Shown here in pieces: positions 2,493 through 16,618 of a stretch of DNA of 46,914 nt (position 1 is its first letter; each line of letters starts with the position of its first letter). The translations under genes and the position numbers were made by a program. The DNA comes from Shackletoniella antarctica (GTDB lineage: Bacteria > Cyanobacteriota > Cyanobacteriia > Phormidesmidales > Phormidesmidaceae): assembly GCA_003241845.1 (NCBI GenBank), contig QBMN01000008.1, positions 1 to 46,914 on the forward strand, in the 5' to 3' direction. The notes under the pieces are model-generated. The model saw nothing but the letters and a program-made list of their open reading frames with translations, was not told the DNA's origin and did no database searches.

Positions 2493-4073
2493 ATGCTTTC
2501 CACGAGCAACCTGTCTGCCGCTCAGGCGGAGACGTATTACACGAAAGAGGATTATTACTCGGCTGAGGAAGCCGCTCACCCGACCAAATGGGTGGGTAAG
2601 GGGGCTACGTCGTTGGGTTTGGCTGGAGTCGTCAATCAGCAAGAGTTCAGCCAGATGCTCTCGGGGCAGACAACCGATGGGCAGGTGTTGACAGGTAAGG
2701 TGGTCGATCCAGAAAAGCGGCGAGCGGCAACCGACTTTACCTTCAGTGCCCCGAAGAGTGTCAGCATTGCGGCCTTGGTACAGCAGGATGCGCGAGTCTT
2801 GGAAGCCCATCATCGGGCAGTGGCCAAGGCGCTAGCGGTTTTGGAAGAGCGCTATGCCCAGACGAGAATTTCAACTGAGGCGGGGCGAACGAAGGTGACG
2901 ACGGGGAATATCGCCACAGCCGTGTTTACCCATTCCACCAGTCGGGAGGCGGAGCCGCAGTTGCACAGTCATTGCGTGGTGATGAATGCGACGCAGCTGG
3001 CGGATGGGCGGTGGTTTAGTTTGAGCAATGAGGGGGCGATCGCACACCAAAAGCTCCTCGGCCAGATTTACCAGAATGAGCTGGCCGTAGCCCTCCAGCA
3101 GCAGGGTTACCGGATTGAAGCCAAGGCCCACGGGCAGTTTGAGCTGGCGGGGTATTCCCCAGAACTGCTGAAGGTATTCTCGACCCGCAGGCAGCAGATC
3201 CTAAAACTGATTGAGGAATGGGAGGCGACAGGATCTGAGAATAACCGAGCCACGCGGGAAACGGCGATGCTGGTATCGCGGAAGCGGAAACCCAAGGAGG
3301 TGGACGAGGGGCTATTGCAGCGAGGGTGGAATGCGCTGATTCAGCTCAAGGGGTTGGAGCTGCCGGAGTTGCCCGAAGGAGTCGCCCATCTACCCGACTT
3401 ATCACCATCGGCGCAATCAGCCATTGATTCAGCGATCCAGCACTGTGGGGAGCGGGAGTCGGTGTTTCGGAGGACGGCGCTGGAGCGGTTTGTATTTGAG
3501 CATGAGCTTGGGGTGCAGGGGTTTGAGGCGATTCAGCAAGCCATTGTAGAGAGCCCCGAACTCATCCGCGTCGCCGAGGGCAAGCTCACCACCCAGACCG
3601 CGCTCAATCTGGAACTCAACACCATTCGTCTAATGCAGCAGGGACGGGGGCAGGTGGCACCGATTGTCCCCAGCGGTACCCAGGTAAAGCGTCTGGAGAG
3701 CCACTCGCTGACCTCGGAACAGCAAAATACGGTGGAGATGGCGGCGACCGCACCGGATGCGGTGATGGCGTGGCAGGGCGTAGCGGGGGCTGGCAAGACC
3801 TATGCCCTGAGTGTTTTGAAAGAACTGACCCAGGAACAGGGGTACGACATTCGAGGATTAGCGCCCAGTGCTGAAGCGGCCCATGTCTTGGGAAAATCGT
3901 TGGGGATTGAGGCTACGACCGTAGCGGACTTATTGGTTTCTGATACCCCTGATCAAGCACCACAACCCAGGCTGTGGATTGTGGATGAGGCGGGACTATT
4001 GAGCATGAAGGATGCCCATGCTCTGTTGCGGCGGGCAGCGGCAGGCAGTTTCCTGAATTCATATCTCTGTTAG
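2493..4073 (+). CDS. Truncated MobF/TrwC-type conjugative relaxase
   Basis: The relaxase nicks plasmid DNA at oriT through an active-site tyrosine and stays bound to the transferred strand. Residues 1-300 form the TrwC relaxase domain: paired tyrosines at 15-16 and 21-22, the conserved DFTFSAPKSVS block, and the metal-binding histidines in EPQLHSHCVVMN. A helicase domain begins near residue 400 with Walker A (GVAGAGKT) and Walker B (LWIVDEAG). The reading frame then breaks about 25 residues later and ends in an unrelated tail. Family members commonly run to 900 residues or more, so most of the helicase is missing. Nicking activity could survive but transfer-linked unwinding should not. No coupling protein or other transfer gene is present. 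Confidence 0.85.
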   Translation: MLSTSNLSAAQAETYYTKEDYYSAEEAAHPTKWVGKGATSLGLAGVVNQQEFSQMLSGQTTDGQVLTGKVVDPEKRRAATDFTFSAPKSVSIAALVQQDARVLEAHHRAVAKALAVLEERYAQTRISTEAGRTKVTTGNIATAVFTHSTSREAEPQLHSHCVVMNATQLADGRWFSLSNEGAIAHQKLLGQIYQNELAVALQQQGYRIEAKAHGQFELAGYSPELLKVFSTRRQQILKLIEEWEATGSENNRATRETAMLVSRKRKPKEVDEGLLQRGWNALIQLKGLELPELPEGVAHLPDLSPSAQSAIDSAIQHCGERESVFRRTALERFVFEHELGVQGFEAIQQAIVESPELIRVAEGKLTTQTALNLELNTIRLMQQGRGQVAPIVPSGTQVKRLESHSLTSEQQNTVEMAATAPDAVMAWQGVAGAGKTYALSVLKELTQEQGYDIRGLAPSAEAAHVLGKSLGIEATTVADLLVSDTPDQAPQPRLWIVDEAGLLSMKDAHALLRRAAAGSFLNSYLC

Positions 4074-4331: not shown

Positions 4332-6203
4332 ATGGCAACCGCTAACCCACTCCCCCTCAGAACCGTCACAGAAGGCTTGAACGTCCGGACAGTGGACGAT
4401 CTCAAAAAGATGCTCCAGCTACTGTCAATTCAAGCGAGACCGACCCGTAAAGCGGAACTCGTTGACACCATAGCGGGCTACCTGTTGGGTTCAGGCCTGA
4501 AAAGCCTGTGGCAAGATCTGGATCAGCTACAGCAGGCGGCTGTGGCCGAAGCGGTTTATCTGACGGGGGGCTGCCACCAGGGTGAGCAGTTCCGGGCCAA
4601 ATATGGGGCATTGCCCGAATGGCGCGATCGCAGTTCTATGTATAGCTACAAGCAACCGGCGGCTAAGCTTGACCTGTTTTTCTACCCCACCGGCACCTAT
4701 ACCGCCCCAAATCTGTTGCCCGAGGATCTGCGTCTCAAGCTCAAAGCCTTTGTTCCTGAGCCCAGGGCACTCACCTTGCCCAGCGCCGAACAACCGCCCC
4801 AGACCTTTCGGGTCGAGCATCGGTACTTCGACTACCAAGAGCGTCAGTCTGTAGCGACGGCGGAAGATGTGGCGGTGGTGTGCTGCCCCACGGAGCAAGT
4901 AGCCCAGCAAGATTTGCTGGCGGTGCTGCGGCTGATTCACCTGGGTAAAGTCAGCGTCAGCGACAAAACTCTAATGCCCAGTAAGGCCACGCTGAACACC
5001 ATTGCCCCCCTCCTGCAGGGCGGCGACTACTACAGCGAAGCCGATGAACCCGACAACAACTACCATGACCCCATTGGCACCATTAAACCCTTTGCCTGGG
5101 TAATGCTGGTGCAGGGGGGCGGACTGGCCAGCCTCGATGGCAAGAAGCTGCAACTGACAAAGGCTGGCCAAAAAGCGATGGGGGCCGCCCCGGCAAAAAC
5201 CATCCAAACGATCTGGAAGAAGTGGCTCAAAACCACCTTTTTAGATGAGTTGCGTCGGGTGGAGTCGATCAAAGGCCAAACCGGTAAAGCCAAGCGCAGC
5301 TTGACGGCGGTCAGCGGTCGGCGGGCTCAGATTGTGGAGGCTCTGGGGCAATGCCCGGTCGGGGAATGGGTGACCTATGACGACCTCAAGCGTCACATGA
5401 TTGCCAGTGGCCAGACCTTCGAGGTCAGCCGTAATCCTGAGAATCTTTACATTAGCGAGCCTGGCTATGGTTACCTGTATGAGGCCGGGGGCTCCTGGAA
5501 TATTCTGCAAGATGCCTATATGAAGTGTTTTTTGTTTGAATATGCCGCCACCCTGGGGCTATTGGATGTGGCTTACATCACGCCCTACGATGCCCCCCGA
5601 GGCGACTTCGATAGCTTCTGGGGTGCCGATGACCTCTCGTTTTTGAGTCGCTACGATGGCTTGCTGGCGTTCCAACTAAACCCCCTGGGAGCCTTTTGTA
5701 TGGGGCTATCCGACACCTACACCGCTGCTCCCATCACCACTGAAAGCACGCTGCGGGTGTTGCCCAACCTCGACATTGTGATGGCCGGAGCCCCACTGAA
5801 CCTGGCAGACCATTTGATGATGGATACGTTTACTCGGAAAACCGCTGATGCGGTCTGGAAGCTAGACCGGGAAGTGGCCCTCAAGGCGGCTGAGGCGGGG
5901 CATTCGCTGCAAGAGTTTTACGACTTTTTAACCCAGGCCAGTGCGGAGGCCCTGCCCCAGACCGTCGAGCAGTTTTTTGCCGACTGTCGCAGCCGTTCGC
6001 AGAGTCTGCAAGACCAGGGCATGGCCCGACTGATTGAGTGCGCTGACGCGACTTTGGCGGCGCTGATTGCCCATGACTCGCGTACAAAAAAGTATTGCCA
6101 GCTGGCGGGGGAGCGGCATTTGGTGGTGTTGTTAGATGACGAGACTCGGTTTCGCAATGGGTTGCGCAAACTGGGGTATAGTTTGCCGATGAGTAAGGGT
6201 TAA
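4332..6203 (+). CDS. Helicase-associated (XPB-partner-like) SAP-domain protein
   Basis: A 623-residue protein. Residues 15-50 resemble a SAP DNA-binding helix pair (TVDDLKKML...RKAELVDTI). Residues 330-400 look like a winged-helix region, and the last ~150 residues (RVLPNLDIVM, the helix containing ALKAAEAGHSLQEFYDFL, then LPQTVEQFF) match the helicase-associated domain often annotated as XPB/Ssl2 N-terminal-like (Helicase_C_3). In bacteria such proteins are often encoded beside an XPB-type DNA repair helicase, but no intact helicase is found here. Two 5' stubs of an XPB-like helicase gene do occur downstream (8173 and 10799), which supports a lost partnership. A role in DNA repair or element maintenance is inference. 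Confidence 0.65.
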   Translation: MATANPLPLRTVTEGLNVRTVDDLKKMLQLLSIQARPTRKAELVDTIAGYLLGSGLKSLWQDLDQLQQAAVAEAVYLTGGCHQGEQFRAKYGALPEWRDRSSMYSYKQPAAKLDLFFYPTGTYTAPNLLPEDLRLKLKAFVPEPRALTLPSAEQPPQTFRVEHRYFDYQERQSVATAEDVAVVCCPTEQVAQQDLLAVLRLIHLGKVSVSDKTLMPSKATLNTIAPLLQGGDYYSEADEPDNNYHDPIGTIKPFAWVMLVQGGGLASLDGKKLQLTKAGQKAMGAAPAKTIQTIWKKWLKTTFLDELRRVESIKGQTGKAKRSLTAVSGRRAQIVEALGQCPVGEWVTYDDLKRHMIASGQTFEVSRNPENLYISEPGYGYLYEAGGSWNILQDAYMKCFLFEYAATLGLLDVAYITPYDAPRGDFDSFWGADDLSFLSRYDGLLAFQLNPLGAFCMGLSDTYTAAPITTESTLRVLPNLDIVMAGAPLNLADHLMMDTFTRKTADAVWKLDREVALKAAEAGHSLQEFYDFLTQASAEALPQTVEQFFADCRSRSQSLQDQGMARLIECADATLAALIAHDSRTKKYCQLAGERHLVVLLDDETRFRNGLRKLGYSLPMSKG

Positions 6204-6308
6204 GGATGGTGCGGTGCATAGTGATTTAGTCCTATCGACTCTCTCAACTATTCCAACAACTGCTTCGGCCTTGGCCGGGTAGGCGGCTCAGTTGGCAGGG
6301 GTGAACTT

Positions 6309-6324
6309 TGTAGCAAAAACTACA
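6309..6324. promoter_or_regulatory. NtcA-type palindrome TGTA-N8-TACA
   Basis: A perfect match to the NtcA nitrogen-regulator consensus. It lies about 430 bp before the next gene and 35 bp before the 40-bp repeat array. No well-placed -10 box about 22 bp downstream was found, so binding is only a possibility. Confidence 0.3.
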
Positions 6325-6358
6325 TTATGGTCTATGGGTACTAAACCCGAAAAGATGT

Positions 6359-6490
6359 GGAAAGTTTCTGGCGACCCATCCAGATTTGGATAATATACGG
6401 AAAGTTTCTCGCGATCTGGCGGATTGAGGTAGATATGCAGAAAGCTTCTCGCTATCCACCCTATCAGAGTTAATATGAGGAAATTAACTC
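6359..6490. repeat. Direct-repeat array with exact 40-bp period
   Basis: Units start at 6359, 6399 and 6439, each opening with GGAAAGTTTCTCGCGA or a close variant, then about 20 divergent bases and an ATAT motif at unit position 34-37. A fourth, partial unit starts at 6479 (GGAAATTAACTC). The core contains GAAA-N-TTTC, a small palindrome. Forty base pairs is close to four helical turns, so every core faces the same side of the DNA. This suits iterons or a cooperative operator. Confidence 0.7.
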
Positions 6491-6753
6491 TCTAATAAGA
6501 TTGTTAGCTAGCCTTGTCCCTGAGAGTGCATAGGGTCTAGGCGTGGACATACTAGAGTTTTCTATTCTACGATTTTTTTAAGTAGGGATAAATGATCAAG
6601 TTTTCATCCGGATGGCTGAATTCACCTATGAAAATTTAGCTTGACAAACCAAGTTATGGCCTGAAAGTTAGTCATAGTTTGATGCCAGATTTAACGAATC
6701 GTGTTTCATAGATTTCCTGCTAACTTGATTTATTTCTACAGGATAATTTACTT

Positions 6754-7329
6754 ATGATTTCAGGCATTGATATGTCAGTCCCGATGATCGCAGGACTCCT
6801 AGATTCAATTATTGAGGAGATGGGAGCTAAGGATAGGCGTGAGCATGAGCGCCGGATGAAGGATCTTCAGATCATTGAGAATTCCAACTTGAAGGATGAG
6901 TATGTAAAGCAATTACTTCTTGATCGAATATTGTATCCAGTTGAGAGAGCGCAACATGATATTCAAAATGCTGCTAAGCATGCTCAGTGGCTGTCTGAAA
7001 TAGTTCTTTTTCACTATAAGGATCACGGTCTAACTCAGGAGCAAGCTTATGAGCTTTCAAAGCAAATCAAGCTGCTTGCGATCCAAATCACCCATGCAGA
7101 TTCACTACATGATCTCAAGTTCGTCTATGCAGTAATTACGATGTTCAACAACAAGGTTTCGGTTTTCAAGCATTCTAAGAGAGAATACTCTATCCATTAC
7201 AACATCAGGGATCACATTCTGAATAAACTAAATAGCTGTATTGCTACCGGCAATAATTTCAAGGTCAGAGAAGAACTGATGAAAATGATGACCGGCCAAG
7301 GCTTGCCTGCTTTAGAACCCCAAAAATAA
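6754..7329 (+). CDS. Hypothetical helical protein
   Basis: A 191-residue protein I do not recognise. It is mostly alpha-helical by composition, with a strongly charged stretch at residues 20-50 (KDRREHERRMKDLQ) that could form a coiled coil, and no signal peptide or membrane segment. Codon use and base composition are AT-rich, unlike the host genes to the right. It precedes the J-domain gene by 81 bp on the same strand. A shared operon is possible but not shown. The 40-bp repeat array lies about 270 bp upstream and may control it. Confidence 0.6.
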   Translation: MISGIDMSVPMIAGLLDSIIEEMGAKDRREHERRMKDLQIIENSNLKDEYVKQLLLDRILYPVERAQHDIQNAAKHAQWLSEIVLFHYKDHGLTQEQAYELSKQIKLLAIQITHADSLHDLKFVYAVITMFNNKVSVFKHSKREYSIHYNIRDHILNKLNSCIATGNNFKVREELMKMMTGQGLPALEPQK

Positions 7330-7410
7330 TATTTTTTGTATTTAGCAAGTGCAGGATAGATTAGCGTCGCACAATTCAGGTATTCCGTGTTTTGAGAAGC
7401 TAAAACAAAT

Positions 7411-7953
7411 ATGAATAATCTAGATCTTCATAAACATTTTGCAGTTCTTGAGCTTAAGCCAGGTGCTTCCTTAGAACAAATTAAAGCTTCGTATAAAGAA
7501 TTAGTTCAAATTTGGCACCCAGATCGGTTTCAAAATAATCCCCAATTACAGCAACGCGCACATCTAAAGCTACAGCAAATCAATAATTCCTATGATTTTA
7601 TCAGGGAGAACTACGATCCCGATGATATAAGCGAAGATTCAGAAATTGACCCATCTAAAATATCTGATCTCAACGAATTACGTGATGCATTGCTAAGATG
7701 CAAGTTCTGTAGCCCTGTTCCCTTATTATTAAAAATAGATTTTAAGAAAGCTGGTTTAGTTAGTAAATTAAGAGATGGACATTATGTTTATCATTTAAGC
7801 CATTCGCTGGGAGGACAGCACCTATATATAACCTCTTTCCCAAAGTCAGAAAATTTTGAGTCAAGCTACAACTCAGTTGTTTTGTCATATTTTGGTGCAT
7901 TTCTTGGGAGAGGTGAAATTTTGGATATTGTTCGCCAGTTACGTGGATGCTGA
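7411..7953 (+). CDS. J-domain (DnaJ-like) protein, apparent cassette gene
   Basis: A 180-residue protein. Residues 5-68 form a J domain with the diagnostic HPD at 36-38 (LVQIWHPDRF), so it should stimulate the ATPase of a DnaK/Hsp70 partner. The C-terminal ~100 residues have no Gly/Phe-rich or zinc-finger region and match nothing I know, so this is a specialised J protein and not a housekeeping DnaJ. The gene is AT-rich. An attC-like site begins 40 bp after its stop, which is the layout of an integron gene cassette. The start is the ATG at 7411; no strong ribosome site is visible. Confidence 0.8.
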   Translation: MNNLDLHKHFAVLELKPGASLEQIKASYKELVQIWHPDRFQNNPQLQQRAHLKLQQINNSYDFIRENYDPDDISEDSEIDPSKISDLNELRDALLRCKFCSPVPLLLKIDFKKAGLVSKLRDGHYVYHLSHSLGGQHLYITSFPKSENFESSYNSVVLSYFGAFLGRGEILDIVRQLRGC

Positions 7954-7992
7954 TTTCTTATCTCTGTAGGAGTTTATCAGTGATATTCTGCT

Positions 7993-8079
7993 GTCTAACA
8001 ACCCCGCTGCACCAGAACGAATTGAGATTACTGGTGAGAAGCAAAAGTGATCTGCGTCCGGTTAGCGGAAACGTTAGGC
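7993..8079 (+). other. attC-like (59-base-element) recombination site
   Basis: An 87-bp imperfect inverted repeat. It opens with GTCTAAC (7993-7999, fitting RYYYAAC) and closes with GTTAGGC (8073-8079, fitting GTTRRRY). Inside these, after mismatched spacers, CCGCT pairs with AGCGG as an L-box pair, then ACC/GGT with extra unpaired bases on one side. Order, spacing and asymmetry follow integron attC sites. No integron integrase is in the window, so this would be an isolated cassette site. Confidence 0.55.
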
Positions 8080-8172
8080 GTCACCGAAAAACTATGCCCA
8101 GTATCAAGTGCACAGCGAAACTTGCTAGACGAGCCGGTCTAAGCCTTTCCCCTCCAAGCAAAGATACGTCTG

Positions 8173-8360
8173 ATGACCTATTCCCCCGACAATGCGCTGA
8201 TCATCCAGAGCGATGGCCCTTAGGGGCAGGTCTTCGACCATCGCACCGCCCTGCTCGACGTCCACGCCCCAAGGCCGAGGCGGCCCAGGCGGCGGTCGCT
8301 GAACTTGATCGTTAGAGCGACCCCATCAGACACATTGAAGGCATATATAGATTCAGCCTA
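8173..8360 (+). pseudogene. 5' stub of an XPB-type helicase gene, copy 1
   Basis: Reading from ATG 8173 gives MTYSPDNALIIQSD, then a 27-bp insertion with a stop, then TALLDVHAP, a frameshift to KAEAAQAAVAELD, and another to SDPIRHIEGIYRFS. In order, these pieces match the first ~60 residues of bacterial XPB helicases as I remember them (for example LIVQSDKTVLLEVDH, then PEHVHTYRITPL, in the mycobacterial protein). The helicase motor is absent. The insertion at 8215-8241 splits a HIP1 site. The first 43 bp (8172-8214) recur at 10798-10840 with one mismatch. Confidence 0.75.
8215..8241 (+). repeat. 27-bp small dispersed repeat splitting a HIP1 site
   Basis: The insertion lies between GCGAT (8210-8214) and CGC (8242-8244), so removing it restores GCGATCGC and the helicase reading frame. 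Its sequence, ending GGTCTTCGACCAT, matches the reverse complement of the 24-bp insertion at 11949-11972 apart from small gaps and a few substitutions. Confidence 0.7.
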
Positions 8361-8394
8361 TAAGCCTTCGGATGTATAAAGGCATTCCCGCAGT

Positions 8395-8865
8395 ATGCTA
8401 AGACTGAGTTATGTTCTTGGCGTTATGAAAAGGCGCAATGGTCAATTTAACCCGAAACGCAGAATGCTGAAGGTTGAACAGTGTGATTTCGAGAGCCTTG
8501 CTGAACTTGCATCTCAGGCTAAGTATGGTGGGAATCCTGAGCATAAGAGAAATCCAGGCAATTTCGGCTTGACACCGCCTAGTGGGCCTAGACCAGGCAA
8601 ATCTCTCTGTGACTCCGTTAAGGTTTTTACCAAGCAGGAAGCTCTAGATTTGCTAAAGAAAGGCATTAAAAACGGACTGGTCAGCGATCGCTTTGAAGGG
8701 CAGTGGCCTAAGAACGTTTGGTCGGTCATGGAGGATGGAACTCCGCTAGAAGCACAGCTTGAGTCAGCTGAGCAGGGAGCATACCACGGTTACCCCATGC
8801 AAACTGAGGATCCATTTTGTGAAGAAGTGATTAAGGAATGGAGGATTCGGAGTGAACTCGCTTAG
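8395..8865 (+). CDS. Small partner protein of a two-gene module
   Basis: A 156-residue protein of unknown function. It has a cluster of conserved-looking motifs: NPEHKRNP near 51-58, GQWPKNVW near 102-109 and AYHGYPM near 129-135. I recall short proteins with this pattern encoded next to degenerate ImmA/IrrE-type proteins, but cannot name a family. Its stop overlaps the next gene's start by 14 bp, so the two are translationally coupled. The start is uncertain: ATG 8395, 8425 and 8464 are all in frame and none has a good ribosome site. It begins just after the helicase stub, so the pair may have been inserted into that gene. Confidence 0.65.
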   Translation: MLRLSYVLGVMKRRNGQFNPKRRMLKVEQCDFESLAELASQAKYGGNPEHKRNPGNFGLTPPSGPRPGKSLCDSVKVFTKQEALDLLKKGIKNGLVSDRFEGQWPKNVWSVMEDGTPLEAQLESAEQGAYHGYPMQTEDPFCEEVIKEWRIRSELA

Positions 8866-10189
8866 CCTTAACTTTGAATGGCTTACAAGTGGAAATGATT
8901 CGCCCCAGATTCGACAGACTATGGGGATGTTTGGGCTGAAGGTGGGAGATATCAGTCTTGCGAGAAATGAAGATACTTGGTCTCAAACGATCCGCGACAG
9001 CGTTCTTGTTTCCGCTTATCCTCTTGCTGCATGGATGGTGTCTTCTTGGTGGAGATTACTTTACGAGCCTCTTCCGCCAACAGGAACTAGACCTTCAGTC
9101 ACTTGGAAGATGGCGCACGAGCTTACGGCAGCGAATCAAGGATTTATTTGGCCAAGAGTAATACTAGCTTCAGATACTGAGTTAATGCAGATATGGTCTA
9201 CAGCATCTAACGCTATTGAACAACAGTCAGTTAGGTACATCAATAGTCTGGATCGACCATTCCCGGTAGATTTACTCGAATTTGAGCAAACGGCCAAGGC
9301 TTTTATTGAATCTGTCTTATCTCGTCTTGACGCAACAGGGATTACCAACACTCCTCTAGCCAACCTTTGGCAAGAAGTCCAGGAAGAACTTGCTGATCCG
9401 TATGCAAGTCAGTATCGTCGTTGTGAAGCTGAATTAGGTTTTGATCCTGATGAGTGTCCTGAAAACCTTGTGAAAGATGCCCTGAAACTTGTTGAGCAGA
9501 TGGGGGGCAAAACATTTTCAGAGGTAGCTCCTGCTTACAGCAAAGATTTATTAGAAGCAAGACCACTCAGCGCAAAAATCAATGAGTTGATCCAAGAGTC
9601 AGGATTTGACGGCAAACCTGAAGTTTCTGTTGATCACTCTACTTCACCAGAATTCTCAAAAGCACCATGGCAAAAGGCAAACGAAGTAGCTTATCGTCTA
9701 CGTGATGTGATCGATATTGAAGAAGATCCAGTTACTGATGATCAACTCTATGACTTGCTTGGCCTACACAAGGCTGAATATGAAGCGTTTAATCCTCCAC
9801 CTCAACGACGCGTTTCGATTGCAGTTCCATCAGAGCAAATCGGATTTAAGTTTCACACTAGAAAACGACACCCAATTGCAAAAAGATTTGAGCTGGCCAG
9901 GTTCATTGGCGATTACTTACTCTATGGAAATCATGGAGAATCATGGCTTGTGAACACAGATCTAAGAACATCAAGGCAAAAATATCAACGTGCTTTTGCG
10001 GCAGAATTCCTGTGTCCTCTCAGTAGCTTGCGAGCTTATTTAGACAATGATTATTCAGAGTCGGCTATGGAAGATGCAGCTGAACATTTTAAAGTGAGTT
10101 CACAGACTGTCGAATCAATGCTTACAAACAATGGGCTAATTTGTTCTCCTCAGTCAGCTAGTTATTTAGAAGCTAGCCTTCCCTATTAA
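8852..10189 (+). CDS. ImmA/IrrE-like protein lacking the HExxH zinc site
   Basis: A 445-residue protein. The GTG start at 8852 is well supported by GGAGG at 8840-8844. The last ~110 residues follow the ImmA/IrrE (M78) layout: a helix where the protease motif belongs (KRFELARFIGDYLL, 345-357), FAAEFLCP (382-389), and a C-terminal winged-helix-like segment (MEDAAEHFKVSSQTV, 406-420). The HExxH motif is replaced by RFIGD at 350-354, so zinc proteolysis is not expected. The first ~330 residues are unique, with aromatic motifs such as SSWWRLLYEP (64-73). ImmA/IrrE proteins control mobile elements or stress responses by acting on repressors. Here a binding or sensing role in a toxin-antitoxin or defence-like pair is inference. 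Confidence 0.65.
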   Translation: MNSLSLNFEWLTSGNDSPQIRQTMGMFGLKVGDISLARNEDTWSQTIRDSVLVSAYPLAAWMVSSWWRLLYEPLPPTGTRPSVTWKMAHELTAANQGFIWPRVILASDTELMQIWSTASNAIEQQSVRYINSLDRPFPVDLLEFEQTAKAFIESVLSRLDATGITNTPLANLWQEVQEELADPYASQYRRCEAELGFDPDECPENLVKDALKLVEQMGGKTFSEVAPAYSKDLLEARPLSAKINELIQESGFDGKPEVSVDHSTSPEFSKAPWQKANEVAYRLRDVIDIEEDPVTDDQLYDLLGLHKAEYEAFNPPPQRRVSIAVPSEQIGFKFHTRKRHPIAKRFELARFIGDYLLYGNHGESWLVNTDLRTSRQKYQRAFAAEFLCPLSSLRAYLDNDYSESAMEDAAEHFKVSSQTVESMLTNNGLICSPQSASYLEASLPY

Positions 10190-10493
10190 TTGATTTGGCG
10201 CGGTAGATAAAGCGTTTCGTCTACCAGAAAATCGCTCTAATACTGCGTTGGTGCGGACGGCATAAAGGTTATCGGTAGGGGTTTAAGATTACCTGCCGCC
10301 GCACAACTTCACCGTTGAGAGTATCTACGTTTTCTCCGTAGCATTGGACTGTTAACGAGGGATGAGAGCCTAAAAGCCTTGCCGAGTATACGTTTCAATT
10401 TTTTGTTTTAAATCGGCTACAACCATTGTAAGACAAGCTTTCAGGCATTTATCATCGCTTTAGAGACCAGTGCCACGGTTAGAAATACCTCCC
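10190..10493. other. 304-bp spacer with two hairpins
   Basis: No gene seen. A short hairpin GGTAGA/TCTACC spans about 10202-10225 just after the ImmA/IrrE-like gene and could end transcription weakly. A longer imperfect inverted repeat at about 10246-10308 (TTGGTGCGG-type arm against CCGCACAA) is unexplained. Confidence 0.4.
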
Positions 10494-13129: not shown

Positions 13130-16100
13130 CTACGGTTGGTTTTGCTCAAATGCCTGCCGGAGTTCGTCGGAGGTGGTGTTGAGGATTTGCGCCGCTTCGG
13201 TGAGAAGGGCTTCGTTTTGGGTGGTCTGATAGAAGCGAGCAAGATTGCGAAGAGAAATGCCTAACCCGTGCTCGTCATTAAATTCGACGGTGATTCTCAA
13301 ATCTTCTATGTAGTAAGCTCTGGCGTTTTCAGCATCACCTGTCTCCTCAGCGACCTGGCCAAGTTGGTAATACGTGCTGGCCTGCCCATAGCGATCGCCA
13401 AACTCGATGAAGAGGTCTAAGGCCTGTTGGTAGTACTGCTGGGCCTGCTCATAGTGTCGCTGCGCCTGCGCCACGCTGCCTATCTGGTGGTACGTGCGGG
13501 CCTGCTCATAGCGGTCGCCAAACTCGATGTTGAGGTCTAAGGCCTGTTGGTAGTACTGCTGGGCCTGCTCATAGTGTCGCTGCTCCTGCGCCACGCTGCC
13601 CATCTGGTGGTACGTGCGGGCCTGGGCATAGCGATCGCCAAGCTCGATTTTGAGGTCTAAGGCCTGTTGGTAGTACTGCTGGGCCTGCTCATAGTGTCGC
13701 TGCGCCTGCGCCACGCTGCCCATCTGGTGGTACGTGCTGGCTTGTAGACTACCCTTAAGTTCATCAGGTACGTCTTCAAGTTTGTTAATAATTTGAATTG
13801 TTATTTGGTAATATTTTTGCGCTGCTTCGTAATTCTGAGATTGATAATAGCCAAGCGCGATCCCATCCAACAATGCCAACAGGGAAAGTTCGACCTCCTG
13901 ATCTCGTTGCTCTTCAGGATATTTATCGATCGCTACATAGACATCACGAGCCAGCTGTATCTTTGTTTGCTTGTCCTGATTCAGTTTTAGAAACTCATCT
14001 AAGCAACCATAGATACTAAGCACTCCTTTTGCAAAGAACTTCAGACCGATCTGTAAAGCAGCGTAGAGATTATCATATTCAAGACGAGTAAAGGATAAGC
14101 CTAGTTGCCGTTCTTGAGGATCTTTGGAATTCATCAGTTGTTGGTACTGGCCTGCAAGGTCCTGATAGTGGTTCTTGAATCCGGTCTCCAGGGCATCGCG
14201 AGTCGCTTCGTCCAGTTCTGCTAGCTTGGTTTTCAAGAAGTAGGGGAAAATGGGTTGAATCGTGAGGATTCCAGATAGGCCAGCATCATGGGGAGACAGA
14301 AGCCCCCAATTGATCGCATCCTGAATAGCATTCTCGAATTGTGAAAAGTCGTAGCCTTGAAACGGCTCTAGCTTTTGAAGTTCCTGAATATAGCTGCTTG
14401 ACACAAGCTGAACAAAGACTCCCTTAAACGGAGCCAAGCACAGCAGCAGCTTCTGCGCTTGCGGCGACAAATTACTGTGAGAATATTCCACACATTTCAA
14501 AATGCTCTGGGTCTTATCGTCACTGCCGCTGTCCAGGTTCACATCTGCCGCGTCCAGCGCTGCCAAAATCTCCGTGGGGCTTTGCCGTGCCAGGTTCGCC
14601 AGCACCACTTCCATCGCTAGGGGGTAGCCCGCCAGCAGCGTCATCAGCCGCCCAAAGTCTTTGTCTTGCCTCAGTTGCTCAATCCGTGGGTTACTGCCTA
14701 CATGCTTTTCTAAAATTTTCTCGGCTAGCTCTGTGCGCGATTGTGGGTCTAGCCCTTGCAAAGCGTAGCGGTTGTCGCGATACACCTGCGCCAGCCAGTC
14801 TTCGCTACTGCGAGAGCCAAGCACTACCCTGGTTTTGCCGCCCACCAGCTTTTGCAAAAAGTCCTTCAGCTTGGTCTGTTCGGCCTTGGGCAGGGTGTTT
14901 TGAATCGCCAGATCCTGCCCTGTCACCGACTCCAGGTTGTCGAGCATTAGCCCGTAGGGTTCGCTGCGCAGGGTCTCCGCCAGCATTTCGGCCTTTGCTG
15001 CCAGGCTCAGGGGTTGCACGCTGCTCCACTCAAACTCGTCATATACCCGCTGGCCCACGTTCTGAATGATTTGCTCCAGGGTGTAGGCCCTTTCGTCATA
15101 GCCAAAGTAAAACACGTCTTTGGCAAACTGCGTCGTCTGCCACCACTCCCGCAGGTAGCTCAGCAGGGTGGTTTTGCCGGTGCCGCCCATGCCTCGCAGC
15201 AACAATACGTTGCGGCGCAGCAGCGACTTCTCAATCTTGAGGATTTCTAAATCGCGCCCCACAAAGCCGTAGGTGGGCTGGGTAAAGCGGTAGCGGCTGG
15301 CTTTAGCTTGGTAATAGGTGGCTTTATCGCGAGCCGACATTTCTTGCAGGTCAAACCGCACGGCTGAGCTGCCGTAGACCACGGGCAGCAGCCAGTCTTC
15401 TAGCTCCACTGTCATGTTAAACCAGCCCTTGCGGGTCTTGCGGTTGTGCAGCTCTCGCCGCCCCAGGCGAATGGCCTCGGCCAGGGGCTTTTGAGTAAAG
15501 AGTTCGGCGTAGAGCTTTTCCATCAAAATCGTCGCTGCCGTGACGCTGACCGAGTAGCCCATGGCGACGACCATCTGCATGCCAGCGGTCATCAGGCGGC
15601 TACCCAGGCTGGTTTCAGGATTTTGGATGTTGGAGTTTAGAGTTTGGAGCTGTAGATCGTCTCCACCATCTTCTGACTTCTGACTCCCGACGTCTAAGTT
15701 CTGCCTCACCTGCTTGGCCGACTGGCAGGCGTTGAGAATACAGACCGGAATCCCCTGGTTGGTGAGCAAATGTGCCAGCTCTTGGGCTTCCACCGGGTCA
15801 GACTGTCCGGGAGTCTCCCCTTCTAAAAACAAAAACGCCTTGACGCCTGCGTAAGGCTCAACATCACTACGCCCATAGCGATCTTTAAACAAAATCGCGT
15901 CAGACTCCTGCTGCTCGTTGGCGATCTGCTCAAAGGTGGCCAGTCCGCCGTGGGCATCGAAGTGAACGATGTGATAGTAGCCCGCACCTTTGGCTTGCAG
16001 GTGATTTTCGAGGGCTCTGTAGGTGCCGGGGCGCAGCAGCTCCACATTGATCGGCACCCTGGCCTGCTGAATGGCTTCAATCAGCGGACGGGAGATGGTG

Positions 16101-16618
16101 CGGTAGTTGACATCCTTTTCTTCACCGGGGCGGGCGGTGACCACCAGCAGGTTAATCGTGGGCGACGGGTTAGGGGTGGCGGCCACCACCATAGCCTGCT
16201 GGGGGCGGCGCACCATCGTGCAGTCCAGCGCCAGCGGACGCGGCAGGTCAGGGTCTTGCAGCGCTTCCCAGTGCAGGGCTTGAAACTCGGGCGACGCGCT
16301 CTCGATGACAAATTCAACGGTGCTGATTTGGGGGCGCAGGTTGGTGTAGGCCGCATAGGCTTTGCGATCGGCAAACACCTGGTCGAACAGGGTTTTCCCA
16401 TAGGTCGGGATGCTGTCTCTGATCTGATCTGCCGTTACCCTATCCAAAAAGGGTCGCCGCAGCCACCCTTCGAAGTACCATTCCAGCTGTGCTTCCTGCT
16501 GCTCATTAAAGGGATTGGTAATAGTGACGGGGTAGCTGCCGCCACCCTCAAACTGAAGGGTCGCCTGGAACTGGTTGGGGGCAAGCTGTCGCTGTTCGCA
16601 AAGCGTAATGGTCGGCAT
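13130..16618 (-). CDS. CHAT protease - NTPase - TPR protein
   Basis: A 1162-residue multidomain protein. The N-terminal CHAT (caspase-like) domain carries the expected dyad: His223 in HFDAHGG and Cys298 in ILNACQS. A P-loop NTPase module follows (GFVGRD at 451, Walker A GMGGTGKTT at 476-484, likely Walker B LMLDNLES), then a helical region and TPR repeats from about 960 to 1110. This is a sense-and-cut layout: TPRs recognise a ligand, the NTPase switches, and the protease acts. CHAT proteins of this kind are tied to programmed cell death and anti-phage defence, but no substrate gene sits nearby. Three TPR units are almost identical at DNA level, and a low-complexity insert (about residues 309-336) follows the catalytic Cys. 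Confidence 0.85.
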   Translation of the reverse strand: MPTITLCEQRQLAPNQFQATLQFEGGGSYPVTITNPFNEQQEAQLEWYFEGWLRRPFLDRVTADQIRDSIPTYGKTLFDQVFADRKAYAAYTNLRPQISTVEFVIESASPEFQALHWEALQDPDLPRPLALDCTMVRRPQQAMVVAATPNPSPTINLLVVTARPGEEKDVNYRTISRPLIEAIQQARVPINVELLRPGTYRALENHLQAKGAGYYHIVHFDAHGGLATFEQIANEQQESDAILFKDRYGRSDVEPYAGVKAFLFLEGETPGQSDPVEAQELAHLLTNQGIPVCILNACQSAKQVRQNLDVGSQKSEDGGDDLQLQTLNSNIQNPETSLGSRLMTAGMQMVVAMGYSVSVTAATILMEKLYAELFTQKPLAEAIRLGRRELHNRKTRKGWFNMTVELEDWLLPVVYGSSAVRFDLQEMSARDKATYYQAKASRYRFTQPTYGFVGRDLEILKIEKSLLRRNVLLLRGMGGTGKTTLLSYLREWWQTTQFAKDVFYFGYDERAYTLEQIIQNVGQRVYDEFEWSSVQPLSLAAKAEMLAETLRSEPYGLMLDNLESVTGQDLAIQNTLPKAEQTKLKDFLQKLVGGKTRVVLGSRSSEDWLAQVYRDNRYALQGLDPQSRTELAEKILEKHVGSNPRIEQLRQDKDFGRLMTLLAGYPLAMEVVLANLARQSPTEILAALDAADVNLDSGSDDKTQSILKCVEYSHSNLSPQAQKLLLCLAPFKGVFVQLVSSSYIQELQKLEPFQGYDFSQFENAIQDAINWGLLSPHDAGLSGILTIQPIFPYFLKTKLAELDEATRDALETGFKNHYQDLAGQYQQLMNSKDPQERQLGLSFTRLEYDNLYAALQIGLKFFAKGVLSIYGCLDEFLKLNQDKQTKIQLARDVYVAIDKYPEEQRDQEVELSLLALLDGIALGYYQSQNYEAAQKYYQITIQIINKLEDVPDELKGSLQASTYHQMGSVAQAQRHYEQAQQYYQQALDLKIELGDRYAQARTYHQMGSVAQEQRHYEQAQQYYQQALDLNIEFGDRYEQARTYHQIGSVAQAQRHYEQAQQYYQQALDLFIEFGDRYGQASTYYQLGQVAEETGDAENARAYYIEDLRITVEFNDEHGLGISLRNLARFYQTTQNEALLTEAAQILNTTSDELRQAFEQNQP
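13381..13740 (-). repeat. Three tandem 120-bp repeats inside the CHAT gene
   Basis: Blocks 13381-13500, 13501-13620 and 13621-13740 differ at only about ten positions. Each encodes a 40-residue TPR unit containing QRHYEQAQQYYQQALDL. Near-identity at silent sites shows recent duplication or gene conversion, so unit number probably varies between strains. Confidence 0.9.
15611..15706 (-). repeat. Intergenic-type repeat inserted in frame in the CHAT domain
   Basis: Codons ~305-336 encode a stretch rich in S, Q, N and D (SQKSEDGGDDLQLQ, TLNSNIQNPE). The underlying DNA resembles the cyanobacterial spacer repeat of the type CAAAACTC/AACATTC, seen again at 38755-38785. It sits a few residues after Cys298 and keeps the frame. 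Confidence 0.45.

Follow-up and report, generated by a model that had tools for sequence, protein, structure and literature searches.

The first 46,914 nucleotides of contig QBMN01000008.1 from the draft genome of the cyanobacterium Shackletoniella antarctica (assembly GCA_003241845.1; 4.7 Mb in 287 contigs), hereafter the window, contain two adjacent, co-directional genes that we describe here as a predicted toxin–antitoxin pair. The small gene comes first and overlaps the start of the large gene, which was found in one copy in this genome (Table 1). A ribosome-binding site for the large gene lies within the small gene and ends 6 nucleotides ahead of the GTG start codon. An earlier reading, made from the DNA letters alone (the sequence-only reading), had described two open reading frames (ORFs) with a 14-base-pair overlap and a strong ribosome site, and both features are confirmed. 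From this layout we infer that translation of the two genes is coupled. The small gene probably starts at the ATG at 8425 rather than at 8395, because the methionine at this position is common to most relatives. The two-gene unit is AT-rich, as had also been proposed, with 44.4% G+C against 57.2% in the window outside positions 6201–10470.

The small and large genes form one co-inherited unit. At E ≤ 1e-20 the large gene was recovered in 114 loci after removal of 6 duplicates; 8 of these lie too close to a contig edge, and the remaining 106 non-redundant loci, each with at least 600 nucleotides upstream, were scored for pairing (the locus counts leave out L001, L095–L112, the 6 duplicates, 12 weak relatives with E > 1e-20, and L013, which has no large gene). 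A full small gene lies directly upstream of the large gene in 84 of the 106 loci, a partial, split or divergent one in 16, and none in six (L011, L053, L055, L064, L114 and L131). Most often the two genes overlap by 4, 8, 14 or 20 base pairs, with other overlaps or gaps of a few bases elsewhere (measured in relatives to the start of the profile match). Among 398 Pseudomonadota genomes the small gene occurs in 17, all of them within the 18 that carry the large gene at E ≤ 1e-20, and the two are adjacent each time, in keeping with the coupled pair that had been proposed. The distances of the two proteins correlate across 64 loci (r = 0.74, against a maximum of 0.23 in 2000 permutations), a correlation to which shared host descent can add. 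Conservation of the pair in many phyla excludes chance as its source.

The pair is spread widely and patchily among taxa. A tblastn search located the large gene in 5 of 386 genomes drawn from the phylum of the window, its own genome counted. Profile searches found it in 25 of 398 genomes of Pseudomonadota (the phylum of Methylomicrobium) at E ≤ 1e-3 and in 18 of 398 at E ≤ 1e-20, with several intact HExxH proteins of other kinds among the matches weaker than 1e-20; at E ≤ 1e-10 it was present in 3 of 349 genomes from the order of Pseudorhodoferax and 6 of 337 from the class of Rhodovulum, each draw including its own centre genome. A scan of 84,980 species with the pattern RQKxQRxF (residues 374–382) gave 102 relatives, and the best 80 of these 102, which were fetched, come by record title from cyanobacteria, proteobacteria, Chlorobi, Acidobacteria, Verrucomicrobia, Chloroflexota and others. 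The closest relative of the large protein in the named-genome scan is from Leptolyngbya sp. PCC 6406 (75%). At E ≤ 0.01 the large protein has matches in eight plasmid records (three typed as conjugative and three covering less than 70%), and an Agrobacterium plasmid is a ninth record with a relative.

The structural model of the large protein (predicted local distance difference test score, pLDDT, 91.9; predicted template-modelling score, pTM, 0.90) has a C-terminal domain that resembles CapP (7t5t; Z 10.8, 164 residues aligned) and PprI/IrrE (Z 9.2–9.4; IrrE 3dti, Z 9.3). Of 81 large proteins, 30 match Pfam Peptidase_M78 at E ≤ 0.1, with a best E value of 1e-6; the match of the window's own protein falls under the cut-off (E 0.021; 15.1 bits against 22). 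In a profile alignment with the intact relative L133, the HELGH of that protein falls on R350-F-I-G-D354. In a further alignment, with five intact proteins that extend to this part, the ligand Glu is set against Q376, and four of these proteins have the Asn of ExxAN opposite R380. We take the Glu aligned with Q376 to be the third zinc ligand of M78 peptidases.

This altered site is conserved. Of the 81 family members aligned, 80 have Arg at position 350 and one has Lys, the first His of HExxH being kept in none; position 351 is hydrophobic, position 353 is Gly in 71, position 354 is Asp in 69, Glu in 7 and another residue in 5, and both Gln376 and Arg380 are present in all 81. No HExxH occurs in the 92 rows of a wider alignment (three duplicates; two rows gapped at the site). 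Because RQKxQRxF was the scan pattern, its conservation in L014–L093 is partly due to selection; R350 and D354 lie outside the pattern, and L010 and L011, which were found without it, also keep R350, Q376 and R380. On the simplest reading of these alignments the protease site was lost in the ancestor of the family and the replacement form was then conserved, which argues for a function other than proteolysis. Of the marks of an M78 peptidase, the domain has the IrrE fold and sequence homology and lacks HExxH and the downstream Glu. The sequence-only reading had recognized an ImmA/IrrE-like C terminus in which HExxH reads RFIGD, and the fold and alignments bear this out, with the zinc ligands replaced. 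The intact-HExxH relatives that could have undone its claim of a dead protease lie only outside the family, being proteins of the Xre-ImmA type whose alignment is confined to the C-terminal domain.

One such protein, L133 (1186–2891), is followed by an ORF that by eye is PIN/VapC-like. The window's own genome also encodes a conventional relative (L095, contig C218, 1336–2175), an intact ImmA/IrrE protein with HELSH that follows an Xre-like gene and has a RelE/HigB-like ORF (by eye) downstream.

Ahead of the pseudo-protease domain lies a part that had been described as a novel N terminus of about 330 residues. It is shorter than that, the IrrE-like part starting near residue 267, and its first ~155 residues are not without likeness to known folds. 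They resemble CdiI of Burkholderia dolosa (5ffp_A; Z 7.3, 123 residues aligned, root-mean-square deviation 3.5), Whirly and PUR-alpha proteins (Z 4.5–5.5; 4koo_A, Z 5.5) and chain 4ntq_B of the Enterobacter cloacae CdiA-CT/CdiI complex (Z 5.2), which is taken as CdiI. A helical middle part connects this domain to the IrrE-like part (Table 1).

Table 1 Features of the two-gene unit in the window
Feature	Position	Strand	Basis or remark
Imperfect inverted repeat, 5′ of small gene	8337–8369		Strand not assigned
Small gene, predicted toxin	8395–8865	+	156-residue ORF from 8395; conserved part of 146 residues from ATG 8425
Ribosome-binding site GGAGGA of large gene	8840–8845	+	Within small gene; read from sequence
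Overlap of small and large genes, 14 base pairs	8852–8865	+	Overlaps or short gaps in relatives
Large gene, predicted antitoxin	8852–10189	+	445 residues; GTG start
N-terminal domain, residues 1–155, CdiI-immunity/Whirly-like fold	8852–9316	+	Fold comparison of model
Helical middle part, residues about 166–260	9347–9631	+	Secondary structure of model
IrrE/CapP-like pseudo-peptidase with helix-turn-helix-like tail, residues 267–445	9650–10186	+	Fold comparison; Pfam
Pseudo-active site R350-F-I-G-D354, replacing HExxH	9899–9913	+	Alignments
Q376-K-Y-Q-R380, Gln for third zinc ligand Glu and Arg for Asn of ExxAN	9977–9991	+	Alignments

The small protein retains two motifs, GQWPKNVW and YHGYP, that had been thought conserved-looking and are indeed kept in its relatives. 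The conserved residues H40, K41, E109, Y120, H121 and Y123 only suggest ribonuclease activity. Realignment of the small-protein model (pLDDT 84.8, pTM 0.81) with PDB entries gave 18 rows with Z ≥ 2 (Z 2.0–4.8), of which 14 are RelE, HigB, MqsR, contact-dependent inhibition (CDI) or other toxin–antitoxin entries, a count that goes by entry title with the toxin chain within complexes not singled out. The entry 2otr (HP0892), presumably a RelE-like toxin, would make a fifteenth. The best row is a CDI complex (5t87_E; Z 4.8, 64 residues aligned). Since by the guidance of the tool Z values below 8 can reflect merely a common arrangement, we hold with moderate confidence that the modelled protein resembles BECR-type toxins. 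Searches of Pfam, NCBIfam, PADLOC and PHROGs gave the window's small protein no match at E ≤ 1, TumE (PF20126) included, and 66 of its relatives give just scattered weak Pfam rows. Viewed as models, the small protein and the N-terminal domain of the large protein together look like a toxin and its immunity protein. A profile search of solved structures yielded nothing of use for the small or the large protein, the hemerythrin, GAPDH, apolipoprotein and Lrs14 rows being judged spurious.

Toxin–antitoxin systems are expected to decay by losing the toxin while retaining the antitoxin. Damage was scored in 104 loci: 82 have two whole genes, 18 a failing small gene only, 1 a failing large gene only and 3 two failing genes, where failing means that the best single frame covers less than 70% (small) or less than 80% (large) of the profile. 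Leaving out three loci judged divergent and undamaged (L010, L094 and L151) and two judged to have another partner (L011 and L055), the count becomes 13 small-only against 1 large-only, the 13 including L064, which has no small gene at all. By hand calculation the chance of at most 1 large-only case in 14 is about 2e-7 if damage tracks gene length (3:1) and about 1e-3 if damage is even; for the uncorrected 1 in 19 these values are 2e-10 and 8e-5. The small-gene genome search points the same way, with few cases.

Exchange of the partner gene is also seen. On the Rhizobium etli plasmid pRetIE4771b a TumE (DUF6516) gene (29.2 bits against a Pfam cut-off of 23.4) lies directly upstream of a relative of the large protein, L011, that aligns with family residues 56–430 (hhalign 99.4%) and has an extra N-terminal helix-turn-helix (HTH). 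In the TumE study, six TumE toxins are toxic in Escherichia coli and neutralized by their partners, and one lowers protein synthesis; neutralization of TumE by diverse antitoxins is given there as the authors' hypothesis, the six tested pairs coming from one subcluster (PMC10584680). In Pseudorhodoferax (L055, 4724–7230) the large-protein relative has pentapeptide repeats at its N terminus (Pfam E 5.2e-13), and a small gene was not found. The ORF upstream of it has YHGTS...ENE motifs and no Pfam match, and we suspect an ADP-ribosyltransferase from these motifs only, so that here another partner is just possible.

We consider it likely that the pair is a type II toxin–antitoxin module, comprising a small ribonuclease-like toxin and a large antitoxin with a pseudo-protease domain. 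As in other modules of this type, the genes are adjacent, co-directional, mostly overlapping and inherited together. The sequence-only reading of a coupled, mobile, toxin–antitoxin-like pair built on a dead ImmA/IrrE domain is upheld by the co-occurrence of the genes, the damage to small genes, the TumE swap and the lack of HExxH. In the mechanism that we propose, the first gene would encode a small BECR-fold ribonuclease-like toxin that probably halts translation by cutting RNA, and the CdiI/Whirly-like N-terminal domain of the antitoxin, with the helical middle part, would bind and block it. The IrrE/CapP-like C-terminal domain, its proteolysis lost, would act as a binding or regulatory module for operator DNA, single-stranded DNA or another ligand. 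Since this domain no longer cuts, toxin release would occur by allostery or by loss of the antitoxin, not through proteolysis by the domain itself. Toxicity, ribonuclease activity, direct neutralization, the neutralizing domain and sensing are all predicted properties, and we infer only by analogy with CapP/PprI that the dead protease is a sensor.

Several points weigh against this interpretation. The damage count is biased towards intact large genes because the large gene served to find the loci, and some of the small-gene splits in draft genomes may be sequencing errors. Individual loci depart from the expected pattern: in L051 the small gene is intact and an in-frame stop interrupts the large one, in L064 the large gene is intact and no small gene could be found, and in L013 the small gene is broken, with no large gene found within the 10.3 kb that were fetched. 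The TumE gene of R. etli is the only clear toxin swap. Because no more than four (large) or nine (small) candidates were scored in each genome, the genome searches could have overlooked divergent lone copies. Support from fold comparison is weak for the small protein, with no row above Z 4.8, and Foldseek gave its model no significant match in the PDB (best E 0.25) or in viral models. The likeness of the N-terminal domain is likewise modest, as Z 7.3 is below 8 and may reflect a common arrangement only, and the Foldseek E value is 0.45.

The foremost alternative, which we regard as possible though distinctly less probable, is that the same pair was selected for abortive anti-phage defence as in RosmerTA, with the pseudo-IrrE domain sensing a phage product or damage and freeing the toxin. 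Among 81 large proteins, 28 are matched by a PADLOC model of RmrA at E ≤ 0.01, the best at 1.2e-7, and in RosmerTA ImmA-domain RmrA antitoxins act with varied toxins against phage (PMC10440598). Activation by single-stranded DNA is described for PprI, and reported likewise for CapP (PMC10904395). Some loci adjoin defence genes, namely dptFGH, restriction, NucC, HerA/SIR2 or OloA/OloB genes. In detail, a Massilia plasmid relative lies beside dptFGH; the relative on a Rhizobium Pop5 plasmid has methyltransferase, dGTPase, WYL and RecB-like nuclease genes nearby, and that on the Agrobacterium plasmid has restriction genes and an integrase. In A. caldus an N-6 methylase adjoins a truncated relative, and the neighbours of genome loci include OloA/OloB, HerA, SIR2, NucC and methyltransferase matches (among the matches listed).

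These neighbourhoods are nevertheless mixed. Among the matches listed for other genome loci are SecA, gyrase/topoisomerase IV, DNA polymerase III and cobalamin genes; plasmid relatives in Tistrella and Allorhizobium have catabolic and transport genes nearby, and a Sphingomonas plasmid relative has insertion sequences. The survey covered 135 of 139 chosen ORFs, with the best 25 of 130 and the best 25 of 131 families, and had no control set that would give a background rate. A defence island as a rule is not supported, the neighbours combining defence and housekeeping genes. The defence-type role suggested by the sequence-only reading is thus possible but unproven. Only one locus was found in the viral contigs scanned, between a transposase-like ORF (our own reading) and a serine recombinase (Pfam Resolvase/Recombinase), and the small protein has no match in phage records. 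Plasmid maintenance is an equal candidate.

A bolder version of the toxin–antitoxin model, which we offer only tentatively, makes the large protein a promiscuous antitoxin scaffold. The dead IrrE protease would now be an allosteric sensor of nucleic acid or damage, its zinc site replaced once, in the ancestor, by a fixed basic pocket (R350, Q376 and R380), and exchangeable toxins would be docked on the scaffold: the BECR-like one here, TumE in R. etli and possibly an ADP-ribosyltransferase-like one in Pseudorhodoferax.

Improbable is a reading without any toxin, in which the large protein would serve as a transcription or DNA-damage regulator binding single-stranded or operator DNA, and the small protein as its accessory. 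The CapP/PprI-like C-terminal domain with its HTH-like tail and the resemblance of the N-terminal domain to the nucleic-acid binders Whirly and PUR-alpha would suit such a role, but the spread is patchy and partly on plasmids, a TumE gene is the partner in R. etli and small genes are broken. A shared operator-like repeat upstream of the small gene was not seen across the relatives scanned. No repeat like the imperfect one ahead of the window's pair was reported upstream in the cyanobacterial relatives scanned, so this repeat is a possible operator at best, and promoter and terminator scans around the pair gave signals no more than in shuffles.

Slightly less probable still is a reversal of roles, in which the large protein would be the effector and its small neighbour an antidote or adaptor. 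In favour, the large protein is the longer of the two and has several domains, and L051 retains the small gene beside a stopped large gene; against that single case stand 13 loci in which the large gene is intact and the small one split, partial or missing. The known toxin TumE occupies the place of the small gene in R. etli, the fold rows of the small protein are mostly toxins while those of the large N-terminal domain include immunity proteins, and the large protein keeps no protease site. Very unlikely, finally, is an orphan CDI or polymorphic toxin–immunity pair left from a contact-dependent system: the 5t87_E and CdiI 5ffp_A rows would fit, but the small gene of the loci read occupies a short frame (78–229 residues from stop to stop, up to about 305) and is not the end of a CdiA-like ORF (no dedicated search for CdiA carriers was made), and the immunity-like domain forms one protein with an IrrE-like domain.

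The sequence-only reading had placed the pair between two helicase stubs. This is not borne out: both helicase-like ORFs lie upstream, and no helicase family is named in the downstream ORFs that were scanned, out to 16.6 kb (5 + 1 + 1). The first, 2493–4073 (+), is a truncated TrwC-type relaxase-helicase (PF08751, E 2e-82) that comprises the TrwC relaxase and the start of a TraI-like helicase and stops after 526 residues; it is probably the remnant of a mobilization gene. The second, 4332–6203, is Helicase_C_3-like at E 7.6e-7 and 29.6 bits, under the Pfam cut-off of 34.2. A stand-alone DnaJ-domain protein is encoded at 7411–7953 (+), in the most AT-rich part of the window (7001–8000, 36.8% G+C). 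Downstream, 13130–16618 (−) encodes a protein with CHAT protease, NACHT/NB-ARC and TPR parts (Pfam CHAT, E 1.2e-17), a STAND-like architecture often tied to defence. No tRNA that could mark an insertion site lies within the window.

If the toxin–antitoxin reading is right, a widespread family is added to these systems, and ImmA/IrrE-type antitoxins are shown to be able to work without proteolysis; such antitoxins may act without protein cutting and may pair with different toxins. In the open-licence PubMed Central literature no paper describing this pair turned up among the matches listed. The pair shares with RosmerTA (RmrT–RmrA, NetFlax node D25) the two-gene arrangement, an ImmA/IrrE-domain antitoxin and variable toxins. 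It differs in that every aligned member is without the protease site. We assume an intact site in RmrA from the name 'protease antitoxin'. A testable question is then whether RosmerTA-like antitoxins need their assumed protease activity at all, or use the domain chiefly to sense a ligand. A second difference is that D25 proteins often have a small HTH, whereas the N terminus of the large protein here is CdiI/Whirly-like and its predicted toxin seems BECR-like.

Similar arrangements are found in COG2856-Xre systems (Makarova 2009), in which an IrrE-like protein occurs in operons with small RNase toxins, PIN or RelE (PMC2701414); RelE belongs to the BECR superfamily (PMC9086364). Common to these and our pair is an IrrE-like protein beside a small toxin of ribonuclease type, which in our case is predicted. 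COG2856 keeps HExxH and is tied to Xre. The intact relative L133 shares just the C-terminal domain with our family; with its PIN/VapC-like ORF, L133 shows the arrangement of COG2856-PIN systems. CapP and PprI share the fold of the C-terminal domain (Z 9.2–10.8), but the zinc ligands of the large protein are replaced, and the third, GAF-like domain of PprI is without counterpart in it, as it ends at residue 445. TumE–TumA is linked through the one HTH-bearing relative that pairs with TumE, whereas the window's small protein has no TumE match.

The fold rows of both halves of the pair recall CdiA-CT/CdiI pairs of the BECR type. The characterized BECR CdiA-CT toxins are tRNases, with one an rRNase, and CdiI generally blocks the active site (PMC9086364). 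Unlike these, the predicted toxin gene studied here is short and separate, and the immunity-like domain is fused to a pseudo-IrrE domain. Nowhere in the window or the loci read is the toxin the C terminus of a CdiA, and no secretion gene was noticed beside the pair. The pair therefore stands nearest to the RosmerTA and COG2856 systems yet is catalytically dead, and it is probably a new variant of the ImmA/IrrE-type toxin–antitoxin systems.

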